Below are positions 24,846 through 31,331 of a stretch of 64,000 bases of DNA, piece by piece. The stretch is from Balneolaceae bacterium. GTDB taxonomy: Bacteria; Bacteroidota; Rhodothermia; Balneolales; Balneolaceae. Below the pieces are notes generated by a model, which saw only the letters and a program-made list of their open reading frames with translations, ran no database searches and was not told the DNA's origin. A program made the position numbers and the translations under genes. Positions within the stretch are counted from its first letter, which is position 1. The number at the start of each line of letters is the position of its first letter. The stretch spans positions 62,001-126,000 of the forward strand of contig VEMX01000014.1 of assembly GCA_009711805.1 (NCBI GenBank), given 5' to 3'.

Positions 24846-26048
24846 ATGATATACGACTTTACAATTGTAGGAGCCGGAATAGTTGGGCTCTCAACCGCTT
24901 ATAAGCTATCACTTAAATATCCCAATGCAGACATTCTTATTCTCGAAAAGGAGGACAAGGTAGCCGCCCACCAAACGGGGAAAAATTCAGGGGTTATTCA
25001 TTCGGGAATCTATTACAAACCGGGAAGTTACAAAGCCAGGAATTGTGTAAATGGCCGCCATCAACTGGTGGACTTTTGCCGGGAACACGATGTGCCTGTG
25101 GATGTATGCGGAAAAGTAATAGTAGCTACCTGCGGGGAAGAGCTTCCCCGACTTAAAAAAATTTATGAACGCGGCCTGGAAAATGAGATCGAAGACATTG
25201 AACTTATTGATGCCGATAAACTGGCAGAGATAGAACCACATGTACATGGAGTTGCAGCCATCAATGTGCCTTGTGCGGGTATTGTGGATTACTCTGGCAT
25301 GTGCCGCAAACTGCTGGAACTGCTGGAAGTGAGAAATACCACAGTAGTCTTCAATCAGGCTGTTTCCAATATCACTGATACCGGTGATTTTGTAGAGGTA
25401 ACTGCAACAGCACATACCTGGCAAACAAAATACCTGGTGAGTTGTGCCGGCCTGTATGCCGATCACCTGGCGGAGATGGCCGGGATTAAATCACCGGTAC
25501 AAATTGTCCCTTTTAAAGGGGAGTATTACGAACTAAAACCGGATGCCGAGTACTTGGTTAATGATCTGATTTACCCGCTGCCCAATCCTGAGTTCCCCTT
25601 TCTGGGCGTGCACTTTACCCGCATGGCTGTAGGGGGAATTGAATGTGGTCCCAATGCGGTGTTTGCCTTTAAACGCGAGGGATATGAGAAACTATCTTTC
25701 AACCTTCAGGAAACTATTGAAACGTTTAATTTCCCGGGGTTCTGGAAAATGGCCAAAGAACACTGGCGTATGGGACTGGATGAATACCGGCGTTCCTTTT
25801 CTAAAAAAGCCTTTGTGAAAGGACTCCAAAAACTGATACCCGAAGTACAGGAACACCACCTTAAACATTCCCCGGCGGGAGTACGGGCCATGGCACTGCA
25901 ACCTAACGGCGAAATCCTTGACGATTTCTATTTTGAAGTTGCCGATCGGCAGATACACGTTCTAAACGCCCCCAGTCCGGCTGCTACTGCAGGCCTGGCC
26001 ATTGGTGACGAAATTGTAAGCCGCGCCGAAGAACACTTTACTCTGTAG
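24846..26048 (+). CDS. lhgO: L-2-hydroxyglutarate oxidase/dehydrogenase
   Basis: LhgO oxidises L-2-hydroxyglutarate to 2-oxoglutarate with FAD, feeding electrons to oxygen or quinone. The 400-residue product is the usual length. It begins with the dinucleotide-binding loop FTIVGAGIVGLSTAY and then shows the family motifs QTGKNSGVIHSGIYYKPGS, VSCAGLYADHLA, VPFKGEYYEL, FPFLGVHFTR and HSPAGVRAMALQPNGEILDD. It stands alone between the SusCD terminator and the repeat array. A YdiJ-like enzyme for the D-enantiomer lies on the other side of the array. Confidence 0.93.
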   Translation: MIYDFTIVGAGIVGLSTAYKLSLKYPNADILILEKEDKVAAHQTGKNSGVIHSGIYYKPGSYKARNCVNGRHQLVDFCREHDVPVDVCGKVIVATCGEELPRLKKIYERGLENEIEDIELIDADKLAEIEPHVHGVAAINVPCAGIVDYSGMCRKLLELLEVRNTTVVFNQAVSNITDTGDFVEVTATAHTWQTKYLVSCAGLYADHLAEMAGIKSPVQIVPFKGEYYELKPDAEYLVNDLIYPLPNPEFPFLGVHFTRMAVGGIECGPNAVFAFKREGYEKLSFNLQETIETFNFPGFWKMAKEHWRMGLDEYRRSFSKKAFVKGLQKLIPEVQEHHLKHSPAGVRAMALQPNGEILDDFYFEVADRQIHVLNAPSPAATAGLAIGDEIVSRAEEHFTL

Positions 26049-26169: not shown

Positions 26170-26967
26170 AAGTCCTCCCTGGAGGGGGGTGGCTCAGCAC
26201 ATCGATTGGAGTAAAAAAGCTATTTCCTCATTGTGCTGAGTCGGTGGGTGTTGTGGAGCTCGGAATCCACAACCAAGTTTATATTACACTTAAAGCTCCG
26301 TTCACACCCCTCAATTCCACCCGGGAACGGCCGTCTGGAATGTCTCCCCTCGAGGGGAGAATTATTCCGGGTGTTATTGATAGTTGTGCTCATATCCAAC
26401 CCAATCCCCTATTTTCCATGCCGGTCATTTCCATGTAGGAGATATCATTGGCACTCTCTGGAAGGATACTCTAAATCAACGGTTATATTTTTGAATTACA
26501 TGAACCCTTATTTATCGTCTTGTATGAAGTCCTCCCTGGAGGGAGGTGGCTCAGCACACCGATTGGATTAAAAAACTATTTCCTCATTGTGCTGAGTCGG
26601 TGGGTGTTGTGGGGGCTCGGAATATGCAACCAAACGAATATTTCACTTAAAGCCCTCATCCACACCCCTCATTTCCATGTAGGAGATATCATTGGCACTC
26701 TCTGGGAGGATACTCTAAATCAACGGTTACATTTTTGAATTACATGAACCCTTATTTATCGTTTTGTATGAAGTCCTCCCTGAAGGGAGGTGGCTCAGCA
26801 CACCGATTGGACTAAAAAAGCTATTTCCTCATTGTGCTGAGTCGGTGGGTGTTGTGGGGGCTCGGAATATGCAACCAAACGAATATTTCACTTAAAGCCT
26901 TCATCCACACCCCACAATTCCACCCGGGAACGGCCGTCTGGAATGTCTCCCCTCGAGGGGAGAATTA
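26170..26967. repeat. Structured tandem repeat array, units 1-3
   Basis: Three units start at 26170, 26527 and 26771, each opening with the CCTCCC/GGGAGG hairpin. Unit 1 is full length (357 bp); unit 2 is 244 bp because about 113 bp between CACCCCTCA and TTTCCATG are missing, with a 3-bp TCA shared at the junction; unit 3 runs about 197 bp and then passes straight into the DUF559 gene. Inside each unit: a 9-bp stem CTCAGCACA/TGTGCTGAG, and, in units 1 and 3, an 18-bp perfect palindrome (26343-26360; 26946-26963) with an XhoI-type core. Small open frames in the units are not conserved in phase (the period is not a multiple of 3) and are not called. 26049-26169 before the array shows nothing recognisable. 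Confidence 0.9.
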
Positions 26968-27348
26968 TACGGGGCGTTGTTTATGGCTGTCGATATAGTG
27001 TTGAAGACTACGAAGCACTCCATCCATCTGTTGTTTAACCTCATGGTCACTAAAGCGGATAAACGACACACCTAATGACTCGAGTCGTTGCTGACGTATC
27101 AGATCTTTCTTGATGGCAGAGGCTGAATCATGGGAAGAACCATCAATCTCAATAGCCAGCATAAGCTCGTGACAATAAAAATCCACAATATAATTATCGA
27201 TGGGTACCTGCCGGTGAAATTGAGCTCCAAGCGTTTTTCCTTTAAGTTGTTGCCAGAGTAGCACCTCACTAAGAGTGCTGTTCTTTCGAAGTAAGCGAGC
27301 CAGCTTCCGGAGTTTAGGATTATATGGAATGATCTTATTTCTACTCAT
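26965..27348 (-). CDS. DUF559 endonuclease-like protein inside the repeat array
   Basis: The 127-residue product is a DUF559 protein, a Vsr-like branch of the PD-(D/E)XK nuclease fold. The family features are clear: LRKNSTLSEVLLWQQLKGK, GAQFHRQVPIDNYIVDFYC and LAIEIDGSSHD, with probable metal ligands Asp56, Glu67 and Asp69 and the conserved His73. The length is normal and the frame is intact. Its stop codon lies 2 bp from the 18-bp palindrome of repeat unit 3, so the last three codons (RPV) sit in repeat-derived sequence, and 91 bp upstream of its start the next repeat unit begins. The gene therefore replaces about 160 bp of a standard unit. DUF559 genes have no settled function; a homing-type or element-linked nuclease is an inference. 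Confidence 0.85.
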   Translation of the reverse strand: MSRNKIIPYNPKLRKLARLLRKNSTLSEVLLWQQLKGKTLGAQFHRQVPIDNYIVDFYCHELMLAIEIDGSSHDSASAIKKDLIRQQRLESLGVSFIRFSDHEVKQQMDGVLRSLQHYIDSHKQRPV

Positions 27349-27439
27349 ATGTTCTTCTTTACAGAGTAAGAAAGGTGTAAGGGCTATTCCTTACAAAAAA
27401 GTTAAGGTTCGAATAAATCCTTTCCCTGGCATGCGGGAA

Positions 27440-28301
27440 GGGAGGTGGCTCAGCACACCGCTGGGGCAAAAAACAATACGCTACTTGTGCTGAGTCGGTG
27501 GGTGTTGTGGGGGCTCGGAATATGCAACCAAACGAATATTTCACTTAAAGCCCTCATCCACACCCCACAATTCCACCCGGGAACGGCCGTCTGGAATGTC
27601 TCCCCTCGAGGGGAGAATTATTCCGGGTGTTATTGATAGTTGTGCTCATATCCAACCCAATTCCCTATTTCCCAAGCCGGTCATTTCCATGTAGGAGATA
27701 TCATTGGCACTTTCAGGGAGGATACTCTAAATCAACGGTTACATTTTTGAATTACATGAACCCTTATTTATCGTCTTGTATGAAGTCCTCCCTGGAGGGA
27801 GGTGGCTCAGCACACCGATTGGATTAAAAAACTATTTCCTCATTGTGCTGAGTCGGTGGGTGTTGTGGGGGCTCGGAATATGCAACCAAACGAATATTTC
27901 ACTTAAAGCCCTCATCCACACCCCTCAATTCCACCCGGGAACGGCCGGCTGGAATGTCTCCCCCCGAAGGGAGAATTATTCCGGGTGTTATTGATAGTTG
28001 TGCTCATATCCAACCCAATCCCCTATTTTCCAAGCCGGTCATTTCCATGTAGGAGATATCATTGGCACTCTCTGGGAGGATACTCTAAATCAACGGTTAA
28101 ATTTTTGAATTACATGAACCCTTATTTATCGTTTTGTATGAAGTCCTCCCTGGAGGGAGGTGGCTCAGCACACCGATTGGACTAAAAAAGCTATTTCCTC
28201 ATTGTGCTGAGTCGGTGGGTGTTGTGGGGGCTCGGAATATGCAACCAAACGAATATTTCACTTAAAGCCTTCATCCACACCCCTCAATTCCACCCGGGAA
28301 C
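27440..28301. repeat. Structured tandem repeat array, units 4-6
   Basis: Units begin (at the shared GGGAGGTGGCTCAGCAC) at 27440, 27797 and 28155; the opening hairpins of units 5 and 6 start at 27783 and 28141. The period is 357-358 bp. Unit 4 has a different opening hairpin (TTCCC...GGGAA) where it meets the DUF559 gene, and a diverged loop in the CTCAGCACA/TGTGCTGAG stem although the stem itself is kept. Its palindrome is at 27599-27616; the unit 5 copy (27957-27974) is imperfect. Unit 6 is truncated after CCCGGGAAC at 28301. The remaining 165 bp to the next gene are AT-rich with no other structure seen. Confidence 0.9.
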
Positions 28302-28466: not shown

Positions 28467-31331
28467 TTGATTAAACGAGATTTACTTAGCCGTCGCCTTT
28501 ATGCCAATGATGCTTCAATGTATGAGGAGCTCCCCGAAGGCGTTTCTTTCCCTAAATCAGCAGCAGATATACAACAGTTAGTTGAACAGGCCCATAAAGA
28601 AGGGTTTTCCATAACACCCAGAAGTGCGGGTACCAGCCTGGCCGGGCAAGCAACCGGCGGCGGGGTTATTATGGATGTATCCCGGTTTATGACGGATATC
28701 CGGGAAATTAACGTTGATGAGCGATATGCTGTGGTACACCCGGGAGTGATCAGGGATACCTTAAATCGTGAATTGGAAGAACAGGAGTTATTATTTGGCC
28801 CCGATACCTCAACCACCAACCGGTGTATGATAGGAGGGATGATAGGGAATAATTCTTCGGGATCATTTTCTATCAAACATAAAACAACACGTGAGCATGT
28901 ACTGGAAATGAAAGTGGTGCTCAGCGATGGTTCGTTAGCTACTTTTAAACCCCTTTCTGAGGAGGAACTGGAAGAGAAGAAACAGCTGGATAATCTGGAA
29001 GGTTATATATACCGCTCTATGTTAAGGCTGATAGAAGAACATAAAGAGCTTATTTACAGGAATTACCCCCATCCTGAAATCATCCGAAGAAACACAGGAT
29101 ATGCTCTGGATAAACTTGCTGAAATGCAGCCTTTTGATCCGGATGGGCGCCCATTTAATATGTGCGAACTTTTGTGCGGTAGTGAAGGTACACTGGCAAT
29201 GACTACCTCTGCAAAGCTGAATCTGGTTACCAAAGACAAAACAAGTATTCTTGCAGTTCCTCAATTCACAAATTTACAGGAAGCACTGGTAGCTACCCGA
29301 GAAGCCGTAAAAGTGCGGCCAGCAGCTATAGAATTAGTTGATCATATCATATTAGAGGCTACAAAGGGAAATATTGAACAACGTAAAAACCGTTTCTTCC
29401 TAAAGGGTGAGCCCAAATATATACTCATTATACAGTTTGATGGGAGTGATAATGGAATACTCCGGTTAAAAACGGAACAGCTGAAAGAAAAGCTGAATAA
29501 ACTAAATCTAGGGTATACCTGTCCGGTGATAGAAGATCCCGAAAAAGTAGATCAGGTCTGGGAGCTCAGGAAAGCCGGTTTGGGTTTGCTGATGGGCCTG
29601 GGAGAGGAGTCCCGGTCGCCAACATTTTGTGAAGACACGGCCGTCCGGGTATCCGATTTACCAGAATATGTGAGTGATTTTCAGGAGATACTGGACAAGT
29701 ATAATACCGAATGCGTGTTTTATGCACATGCCTCGGTAGGAGAATTGCATCTGCGTCCCGTTGTTGATATCACTACTGAGCGTGGACTGCAGATTATGAA
29801 AAATATGGCAGATGAAATTGCCGAACTGGTCAGGAGGTACCGGGGATCACTTTCTGGTGAACATGGGGATGGGCGAGCCCGGTCCCCCTACATCGAAAAA
29901 GTACTGGGTAAAGAGCTGATGTCGGTACTAAAAGAAGTGAAAGAAATTTGGGATCCCGACAATATCTTTAACCCCGGGAAAATTGTTTCTTCTGAAGCAC
30001 TCGACTCAGATTTGCGGTTTTCCCCGGATTATAAACGCCCGGATATAGATACTGTTTTTGCCTGGAGGGATGAGGGTAATATGGGAGTTGCCTTAGAACT
30101 ATGTAATGGCGCAGGTGTATGCCGGAAGCTTGCAGAAAGTGGAGGTACCATGTGCCCTTCCTATATGGCTACACGGGATGAAAAAGATTCTACCAGGGGA
30201 CGGGCCAACGTATTCCGACAGGTATTTGAAGGAGATGATCCGGAAGGTTTTGCCTCCGAAGAACTGAAAGAAGCCCTGGATTTATGCCTGAGTTGTAAAG
30301 CCTGTAAAAGCGAATGCCCCGCCAATGTGGATATGGCAAAGATGAAGGCTGAATTTATGAATGGCTGGCATGAAATATATGATGTTACCAAAGGTGAACG
30401 GTTTTTTGCCGAATCCGGAAAATTGTTTCCCCTGGCTTCAATGATGCCGAGAATGGTAAATACCCTGGTGAATTCCGGCTTTGGTAAACGCATGATGGAA
30501 TTGATTCTTAAAATTGACAGTAGACGTGAACTCCCTGATTTTGCTTCGCAGACATTTAAGCAATGGTTTAAAGAACATACTGCAAGTAGAAGGCAAGCAG
30601 GGAAATGGAAAGTGTTGCTTTTTGTAGATCTGTTCACAAACTATAATGAACCGGAAGTAGGCATTGCCGCTGTACGTGTGTTAGAGAGCATGGGATTTGA
30701 GGTGTTGGTTGCCGATACCATGCAGACCGGCCGTGCTCAGATTTCAAAAGGAATGTTGGAAGATGCTAAACAGATTTGCAAAAAGACGATCAAAGAGTTG
30801 AAAAAATATGCCCAGGCCAGAATCCCTATAATAGGTCTGGAACCCTCCGAAGTTTTAACTCTGAGGGATGAGTTTCTGGAATTATGTGAGCCTTATGAAT
30901 TACTGGAAGCACGAAGAATAGCAAAACGCTCGTATACATTTGAGGAGTTTTTAGCCTTGCACTCGCAAAAGTTTCCCGGAAAGGCGGGGGGCGAACATGT
31001 AATGCTGCACGGACACTGCCATATGAAAGCACTGGTTGGAAATAAACCTTCGGTTATGGCGCTCGAAGCCGTTGGTTATACCGTTGAGGAAATTCCGTCT
31101 GGTTGCTGCGGCATGGCGGGCAGTTTTGGTTACGAAAAAGAGCATTACGACTTATCCATGGATATTGGAGAACTAGTTCTTTTCCCACATATCAGGGAGC
31201 ATGAAGCCAAAATTTGTGCATCGGGTTTTTCATGCCGCCACCAGATAAAAGATGGTACAGGAGAACAAGCCTATCATCTCGCTCAGCTATTAGCTGATAC
31301 CATCCGGGACAAAGTAGAAATGGAAATGTAA
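28467..31331 (+). CDS. YdiJ-like FAD/Fe-S dehydrogenase (D-2-hydroxyglutarate or glycolate type)
   Basis: The 954-residue product fuses a GlcD-like FAD domain to a GlcF-like iron-sulfur and CCG domain, as in YdiJ, the E. coli D-2-hydroxyglutarate dehydrogenase. The N-terminal PCMH domain has RSAGTSLAGQATGGGVIMD and IGGMIGNNSSG; the substrate cap has HASVGELHLRP and LSGEHGDGRARSP. Two 4Fe-4S sets follow: CNGAGVCRK...MCPSY and CLSCKACKSECP, then the CCG motifs HGHCHMKALVG and SGCCGMAGSFGYEKEHYDLS. TTG 28467 is chosen because AAGGAG sits 5 nt upstream and no better start exists. The DoxX gene follows by 4 bp. The exact 2-hydroxyacid is inferred; the nearby lhgO favours D-2-hydroxyglutarate. Confidence 0.85.
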   Translation: MIKRDLLSRRLYANDASMYEELPEGVSFPKSAADIQQLVEQAHKEGFSITPRSAGTSLAGQATGGGVIMDVSRFMTDIREINVDERYAVVHPGVIRDTLNRELEEQELLFGPDTSTTNRCMIGGMIGNNSSGSFSIKHKTTREHVLEMKVVLSDGSLATFKPLSEEELEEKKQLDNLEGYIYRSMLRLIEEHKELIYRNYPHPEIIRRNTGYALDKLAEMQPFDPDGRPFNMCELLCGSEGTLAMTTSAKLNLVTKDKTSILAVPQFTNLQEALVATREAVKVRPAAIELVDHIILEATKGNIEQRKNRFFLKGEPKYILIIQFDGSDNGILRLKTEQLKEKLNKLNLGYTCPVIEDPEKVDQVWELRKAGLGLLMGLGEESRSPTFCEDTAVRVSDLPEYVSDFQEILDKYNTECVFYAHASVGELHLRPVVDITTERGLQIMKNMADEIAELVRRYRGSLSGEHGDGRARSPYIEKVLGKELMSVLKEVKEIWDPDNIFNPGKIVSSEALDSDLRFSPDYKRPDIDTVFAWRDEGNMGVALELCNGAGVCRKLAESGGTMCPSYMATRDEKDSTRGRANVFRQVFEGDDPEGFASEELKEALDLCLSCKACKSECPANVDMAKMKAEFMNGWHEIYDVTKGERFFAESGKLFPLASMMPRMVNTLVNSGFGKRMMELILKIDSRRELPDFASQTFKQWFKEHTASRRQAGKWKVLLFVDLFTNYNEPEVGIAAVRVLESMGFEVLVADTMQTGRAQISKGMLEDAKQICKKTIKELKKYAQARIPIIGLEPSEVLTLRDEFLELCEPYELLEARRIAKRSYTFEEFLALHSQKFPGKAGGEHVMLHGHCHMKALVGNKPSVMALEAVGYTVEEIPSGCCGMAGSFGYEKEHYDLSMDIGELVLFPHIREHEAKICASGFSCRHQIKDGTGEQAYHLAQLLADTIRDKVEMEM

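Follow-up and report, generated by a model that had tools for sequence, protein, structure and literature searches.

A DUF559 nuclease gene and its palindromic ends as a probable homing-like selfish element with gene-less derivatives

A DUF559 nuclease gene in the window (the whole 64,000-nucleotide stretch of Balneolaceae DNA analysed here) lies between palindromic inverted ends in an array of gene-less units. We propose, with a probability of about two in three, that DUF559 and such ends form a homing-like selfish element and that the gene-less copies are its REP-like derivatives. The element family is apparently previously undescribed; our literature search, which most subscription journals lay outside, found no work linking DUF559 with palindromes. 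The association of the ends with the gene, presence or absence at fixed sites, in-frame continuity with host proteins and the nuclease lineage at each site are directly supported, as are the tree conflict at leuS, purifying selection in two site groups and the nuclease fold. Nuclease cleavage and element mobility are what we infer.

Results

A nuclease gene within a tandem array of palindromic units

A repeat search confirmed the six tandem copies or part-copies described in the first-pass annotation: positions 26170–28301 are real tandem repeats with a unit of ~357 bp, and the register copies start at 26170, 26527, 26771, 27426, 27783 and 28141 (spacings 357, 244, 655, 357 and 358). The copy at 27426 is strongly diverged, the unit at 26530 has no right end (the spacing there being 244), and the right end at 28276 is truncated. 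The six left ends (starts 26173, 26530, 26774, 27422/27435, 27786 and 28144) consist, in order, of the palindrome CCTCCCTGGAGGGAGG, GTGG, a hairpin CTCAGCACA/TGTGCTGAG and then CGGTGGGTGTTGTGG. The five right ends (starts 26303, 26906, 27559, 27917 and 28276) carry CACACCCC, a hairpin ATTCCA/TGGAAT and the 18-bp palindrome TCTCCCCTCGAGGGGAGA, which is present in three exact copies (26343, 26946 and 27599) and a mutated one (27951). Computed folding shows these hairpins to be stable. Copy 1 has its left end at 26173–26256 (palindrome CCTCCCTGGAGGGGGG, GTGG, hairpin and G-block) and its right end at 26303–26362; copy 2 is reduced to a left end at 26530–26612; copy 3 has its left end at 26774–26857 and its right end directly against the gene. 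The right end of copy 4 occupies 27559–27618, copy 5 has a left end at 27786–27868 and a right end at 27917–27976 with the palindrome mutated to TCTCCCCCCGAAGGGAGA, and copy 6 has a left end at 28144–28227 and the truncated right end at 28276–28301, where the array stops.

As first annotated, the array holds an intact DUF559 gene (26965–27348, minus strand, 127 aa). Copy 3 flanks it with its right end and copy 4 with its left end, and the palindromes on the two sides both face the gene. In the unit at 26965 the gene takes the place of the ~160-bp filler that runs from right end to left end in gene-less units (27619–27782). The right end by its stop codon (26906–26965; C-block CACACCCC, hairpin and the 18-bp palindrome facing the gene) overlaps that codon by one base and is the inverted partner of the gene's left end (TIR test, score 18.0); the stop lies 1 bp from the palindrome, not 2 bp as originally given. 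The left end upstream of the ATG (27422–27510) comprises a diverged palindrome, the CTCAGCACA/TGTGCTGAG hairpin and the G-block CGGTGGGTGTTGTGG facing away from the gene. It begins 74–91 bp upstream of the ATG, so that the earlier figure of 91 bp holds as the upper value of a range.

Three species share a motif, TTGTAAGGA, within a T-rich stretch that precedes the DUF559 start (27365–27395 in the window; loci L039 and L041); it is perhaps a promoter. The array's right ends resemble the whalefall-1 RNA model on the minus strand (26300–26363, 26903–26966, 27556–27619 and 27914–27977), with scores of 19.8–22.8 bits that all fall below the gathering value of 37, and the resemblance is treated as a lead rather than as an identification with a known RNA family. 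The whalefall-1 'RNA' might itself be an element end. An RNA-family search beside DUF559 in 40 other loci gave no gathering-level match, and miRNA matches were set aside as sub-threshold hairpin look-alikes.

A predicted Vsr/EDxHD-type nuclease

The window protein matches the Pfam profile PF04480 at 98.5 bits (curated cut-off 20.6). Its AF2 model (pLDDT 90.6) matches 3hrl (E 1.6e-7, Foldseek) and the homing endonuclease I-Bth0305I (3r3p_A; E 1.9e-4, prob 1.00, TM(target) 0.74), with a weaker match to 1vsr (E 0.06), and a profile match to I-Bth0305I reaches E 0.003. The model thus points to a nuclease of the Vsr/EDxHD type. Across 54 DUF559 sequences E28, D56, G70, H73, D82 and R98 are invariant and E67 and D69 are conserved in at least 90%; the conserved acidic and histidine residues are the likely catalytic residues. 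Median dN/dS values of 0.18 in the leuS group and 0.06 in the ilvA group, obtained for these two site groups with dS near saturation and only three pairs per group at dS <1, fit purifying selection on the nuclease at both sites.

A defence-library search with DUF559 returned weak, partial matches to other nucleases only, and a defence gene is on that basis an improbable identity. A classical IS or RAYT was rejected, the gene being DUF559 and not a transposase. What the element itself carries is thus DUF559 rather than an HuH Y1 transposase.

Inverted palindromic ends accompany DUF559 genes across phyla

The proposal that the same kind of hairpins flank DUF559 genes elsewhere was borne out, including for the other two DUF559 genes of the window's own genome. 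With flanks taken outwards from the domain boundaries, which lets ends within the ORF count, an inverted-repeat score of at least 14 was found for 82 of 139 DUF559 domains (59%) versus 6 of 1139 random positions (0.5%; p = 6e-47). Inverted ends are therefore ~110 times commoner around DUF559 than at control positions, and the link is not a chance one. When upstream flanks were compared with reverse-complemented downstream flanks at 80 DUF559 loci from GTDB genomes, which had first been inspected by eye, scores of at least 18 occurred for 22% of DUF559 genes, 0.07% of random positions and 1.7% of other ORFs. Mismatched loci, in which the left flank of one was paired with the right flank of another, still scored at least 14 in 10% of cases because end families are shared between loci. 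About 40% of DUF559 genes have no recognisable inverted partner. Sampling covered Bacteroidota, Balneolota, Rhodothermota, Calditrichota, Planctomycetota, Pseudomonadota, Deinococcota and Cyanobacteriota, and the 139 genes span at least seven phyla.

The ends have a common architecture: a C/G-rich (pyrimidine/purine) palindrome, a short spacer or hairpin, and a third G-block that repeats the arm. Two end types differ in the orientation of this block, which points towards the gene in one and away from it in the other; the window has the latter. Because the orientation varies among subfamilies, the exact element boundaries, themselves provisional, differ too. The same architecture is found on plasmids of Sphingobium, Qipengyuania, Deinococcus and Picosynechococcus. 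A nearly identical end (AGCCCCTAAATCCCC..GGGGACTTnnTACTGG) is shared by the Picosynechococcus plasmid pAQ6 (L253) and flavobacterial metH (L099 and L102).

Direct repeats with a score of at least 40 flank 24 of 72 DUF559 loci versus 1 of 338 controls. At several loci the end of a host gene is duplicated, namely pcrA (L068), pyrC (L022), xseB (L030), serS (L052) and a ygiQ-like gene (L082), the names being taken from translations. Such long direct repeats may be target duplications or the product of tandem reiteration with flanking DNA. Long classical target duplications were rejected as a general rule, because the metH insertions described below show none and the long repeats fit tandem reiteration equally well.

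In 200 Flavobacteriaceae genomes the end pattern TCCCCTTGAGGGGACNNNAGGGGTGT (at most 2 mismatches) occurred in 21, and its reversed control in 0. DUF559 was present in 19 of these 21 genomes versus 49 of the 179 others (p = 2e-8, a value that ignores shared ancestry); some genomes, such as G179 with its 15 ends, have the palindromes but lack DUF559. In G155 single ends form tandem arrays (C1:218817-219266 and C12:175609-176154), with spacings of ~141 bp and ~104/208 bp; they resemble the window's array but belong to another end family. Two DUF559 genes in the same orientation lie 1.0–1.4 kb apart in G003 (C1:258303-259616) and in G094 (C2:234561-236264), probably through tandem duplication of the gene-bearing unit.

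The array is an insertion with dispersed relatives in its own genome

The array is flanked on the left by a gene for an lhgO-like FAD oxidoreductase (24846–26048, plus strand) and on the right by one for an FAD-linked oxidase (28467–31331, plus strand), the latter present in 88 of 92 Balneolaceae genomes. Relatives were compared with one genome per species, the window's genus being represented by one genome. The possibility, allowed for in the first-pass annotation, that relatives carry the array at this locus without the gene did not hold: the array is absent from the homologous interval. In 14 of the 30 best Balneolaceae loci lhgO is the immediate upstream neighbour of the FAD oxidase gene, 10–331 bp away, and in two others the distance is ~1 kb; the gap in the window is 2418 bp, and the array is therefore an insertion. 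In one relative (L240) this interval holds palindromic ends too, a gene-less pair that differs from the window's.

Of the 13 matches to the left-end pattern in the 4.08-Mb own genome, 5 lie in the array and 8 on other contigs; the pattern read backwards, as a control, has 0. Gene-less copies of the same end family are thus dispersed in this genome, some as left–right pairs and others as single ends. The genome's three DUF559 genes have TIR scores of 19.0, 18.0 and 18.5, and their end sequences are all different. Near a gene-less left end on contig C58 (L009, ~1300–1420 of the locus) there is a long GGGAAAA run. The earlier proposal that the gene and its hairpins form the full element, with the gene-less units as derivatives, is favoured because the hairpins flank DUF559 elsewhere, the array is absent in relatives and gene-less copies are dispersed; as to the sequence of events at this locus, the gene-bearing copy may either have seeded the array or have come into it.

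In-frame insertion into host genes

The window's own copy of the element is intergenic. Many Flavobacteriaceae encode DUF559 within a larger protein, with in-frame insertions or fusions at leuS, metH, recG, aroC, rnpA, ilvA, thiE, hemD and hisD; DUF559 and its ends lie inside leuS, metH, aroC and recG and are fused to rnpA, hemD and ilvA. The segment is translated in these relatives through one or both ends and so can sit in frame in essential genes. In fusions the right end is read as a linker (TPLKSPQGD or TPLNSPQGD) between DUF559 and its partner, which is an ilvA-like threonine dehydratase in Winogradskyella and RnpA in Muricauda. The chorismate synthase insertion falls between residues aligned to 264 and 269 of 5z9a. 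A single leuS site accounts for 12 of the 30 best DUF559 loci from 200 family members; hemD has 5, at its start, hisD has 1, at its end, and several more are in metH, with hemD and hisD identified by sequence. The DUF559 genes fused to the start of an apparent uroporphyrinogen-III synthase (HemD; L187, L193, L198, L204 and L205) form one DUF559 clade. A Pfam scan of five fusions found no splicing domain (Hint) at 1e-5, only the host domain and DUF559, and an intein was rejected accordingly. Judged from sequence, the in-frame insert seems to carry neither a stop nor a splicing domain and to remain in the protein.

Empty and occupied alleles can be compared directly at metH. Of 200 genomes, 163 yielded a MetH, mostly in frames of ~890–930 aa, with occupied frames at 1040–1070 aa. 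In the alignment, empty ..PFIEAEK-DGKQEFA-GKILMATVKG.. stands against occupied ..PFIEAEK-[element]-GRILMATVKG.., and the element, whose TIR at the DNA level is AGCCCCTnnnTCCCCAAAGGGGA, is the sole difference between the alleles. The nearest relative of the occupied W. sediminis MetH (95% in that domain) is empty. No short target-site duplication was found at the metH site. A MetH without DUF559 (L165) has AAGGAAGCCTCCCAAAGGGGCAAGG at the insertion site, possibly the footprint of a lost element.

The leuS site measures 15 aa in most empty alleles and 147–168 aa in occupied ones. Miniature insertions that intermediate ORF lengths seemed to indicate in LeuS proved mostly wrong, because frame length takes in other parts of the gene; the site usually has 15 aa. 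The real short inserts there are CGTC-type palindromes. In L256, L258, L298, L305 and L319, and likewise in L280, L286 and L323, REP palindromes of this type (AACGTCATTGCGAGCGAAGCGAAGCAATCTCAT and kin) sit in frame in the LeuRS loop where other species carry DUF559 elements.

One nuclease lineage per site

The occupants of metH site 1, of ilvA, of rnpA and of hemD each form one DUF559 clade, and in a quick tree the leuS occupants need 2 changes on the DUF559 tree versus 8.3 when shuffled. On the host side, the occupied label needs at least 3 changes on the MetH tree. In a quick LeuS tree with 14 of 77 rows occupied it needs 11, at least 7 of them forced. The trees indicate that each main site has its own nuclease lineage and is patchily occupied on the host tree.

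Two leuS occupants, L122 and L199, are sisters (99*), and their LeuS hosts lie far apart across starred branches. Nuclease and host trees conflict here, a sign of lateral arrival at the same leuS site. The occupant of metH site 2 (L104) is sister to a site-1 occupant (L160; 99*) in the quick tree, which suggests a move between metH sites; in the careful tree it stands next to the entire metH site-1 clade. Occupancy at metH could be the outcome of one old insertion with vertical inheritance and several losses, since the nuclease tree shows no clear conflict with the host tree there.

Discussion

In our reading the DUF559 gene, together with the palindromic end on either side, would form one selfish element. 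Its nuclease, which may recognise the palindromes, most likely cuts or nicks an unoccupied target, and the element would be copied in during repair in a homing-like manner, with occasional moves to new sites; the nuclease itself would cause the movement. The palindromic ends would mark the copied segment and be harmless once translated. Gene-less copies, including those in the array, would be non-autonomous derivatives, and the array may have grown by tandem duplication with flanking DNA.

The most serious alternative, which we consider unlikely, is transposition, in which DUF559, much as RAYT/TnpA-REP or IS200/IS605 enzymes do, would recognise the palindromic ends as cruciforms or single-stranded hairpins and move the element, the gene-less units being its MITEs. 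Ends do accompany the gene at very many unrelated loci, gene-less copies are dispersed in the own genome, long direct repeats flank 24 of 72 loci and at some of them duplicate the end of a host gene (pcrA, pyrC, xseB and serS), and the metH site-2 copy is sister to a site-1 copy. However, the occupants of one site belong to one lineage in distant hosts, which is the pattern of homing; the metH site has no short target-site duplication; and the fold is that of a homing or repair nuclease rather than of an HuH or DDE transposase.

It is very improbable that DUF559 is an ordinary host nuclease of repair or defence whose hairpins act as transcription terminators or as regulatory structures in RNA. 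The hairpins fold stably, and the right ends match whalefall-1 below threshold, but in leuS, metH, rnpA and ilvA the ends are translated inside the ORF, so that no termination is possible there; the defence library gave weak, partial nuclease matches only, and the patchy occupancy is unlike that of a housekeeping gene. Equally improbable and strongly disfavoured is a gene inserted by chance in an older palindrome array, palindromes and DUF559 being independent and sharing tolerant non-essential places: at the window locus the gene may have come after the array, and CGTC-type palindromes use the same tolerant leuS loop, but the ~110-fold excess of inverted ends over controls, the rate of 1.7% for other ORFs in the same loci against 22% for DUF559, and the separate end family of each of the own genome's three DUF559 genes all speak against it.

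On a wider reading, which we hold only tentatively, DUF559 would be the mobiliser so far missing for bacterial palindromic repeats without a transposase, CGTC-type REPs and RPE-like elements among them, and its elements would be a class of exon-resident selfish nucleases that enter essential genes in frame with no need of splicing. It is suggested by the leuS loop that CGTC-type palindromes share with DUF559 elements and by the same end architecture in several phyla.

The proposed element ties a common domain of unknown function, DUF559, to C/G-rich palindromes, which are frequent and unexplained in the genomes of bacteria; the domain thereby gains a candidate function and the palindromes a candidate cause. 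Its in-frame copies in leuS, metH, aroC, recG and rnpA amount to domain-insertion experiments made by nature in essential proteins, where the selfish element would persist as a harmless part of the host protein, not via self-splicing. An old question, which enzyme spreads transposase-less palindromic repeats, thereby becomes testable.

Comparison with known systems

Free-standing homing endonucleases need no intron or intein. The EDxHD homing endonuclease I-Bth0305I resembles the DUF559 nucleases in fold, in being encoded by a small nuclease gene, in having site-specific lineages and in its patchy occupancy. Unlike EDxHD homing endonucleases, DUF559 elements lie outside introns and inteins, are bounded by palindromic inverted ends, are translated in frame with the host protein and have gene-less derivatives. 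In PMC9403480 a DUF559 gene is already named an EDxHD homing endonuclease.

Inteins likewise place a homing-type nuclease in frame in conserved enzymes, but five DUF559 fusions are without a splicing domain and the insert seems to be kept in the protein. With the MITEs of classical insertion sequences the DUF559 elements share terminal inverted repeats and gene-less derivatives of a gene-bearing element; they differ in having no DDE transposase and, at the resolved metH site, no short target-site duplication.

Rickettsia palindromic elements (RPEs), to our knowledge, carry no gene, whereas DUF559 elements encode a nuclease between their ends and range over at least seven phyla. RPEs are described as in-frame palindromes in protein genes in PMC3733652, which cites Ogata and Claverie, and relatives of the window's element are likewise inserted in frame in protein genes (leuS, metH, aroC, recG and others).

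In the same paper (PMC3733652), REPs and REPINs with a RAYT (TnpA-REP) are short palindromes, single or paired and clustered, with their partner enzyme in the same genome; REP clusters are attributed to tandem reiteration with flanking DNA, and CGTC REPs are said to be without a dedicated transposase. The partner here is instead a PD-(D/E)XK/Vsr-type nuclease and not an HuH Y1 transposase, and DUF559 ends appear to carry a third G-block in place of the GTAG tag; the window's left end has GTGG ahead of its hairpin, and inspection of other end families by eye showed neither a GTAG nor a CGTC tag of that kind. What the two systems have in common is palindromes that occur singly or in pairs, cluster, are reiterated with flanking DNA and have a partner enzyme in the same genome.
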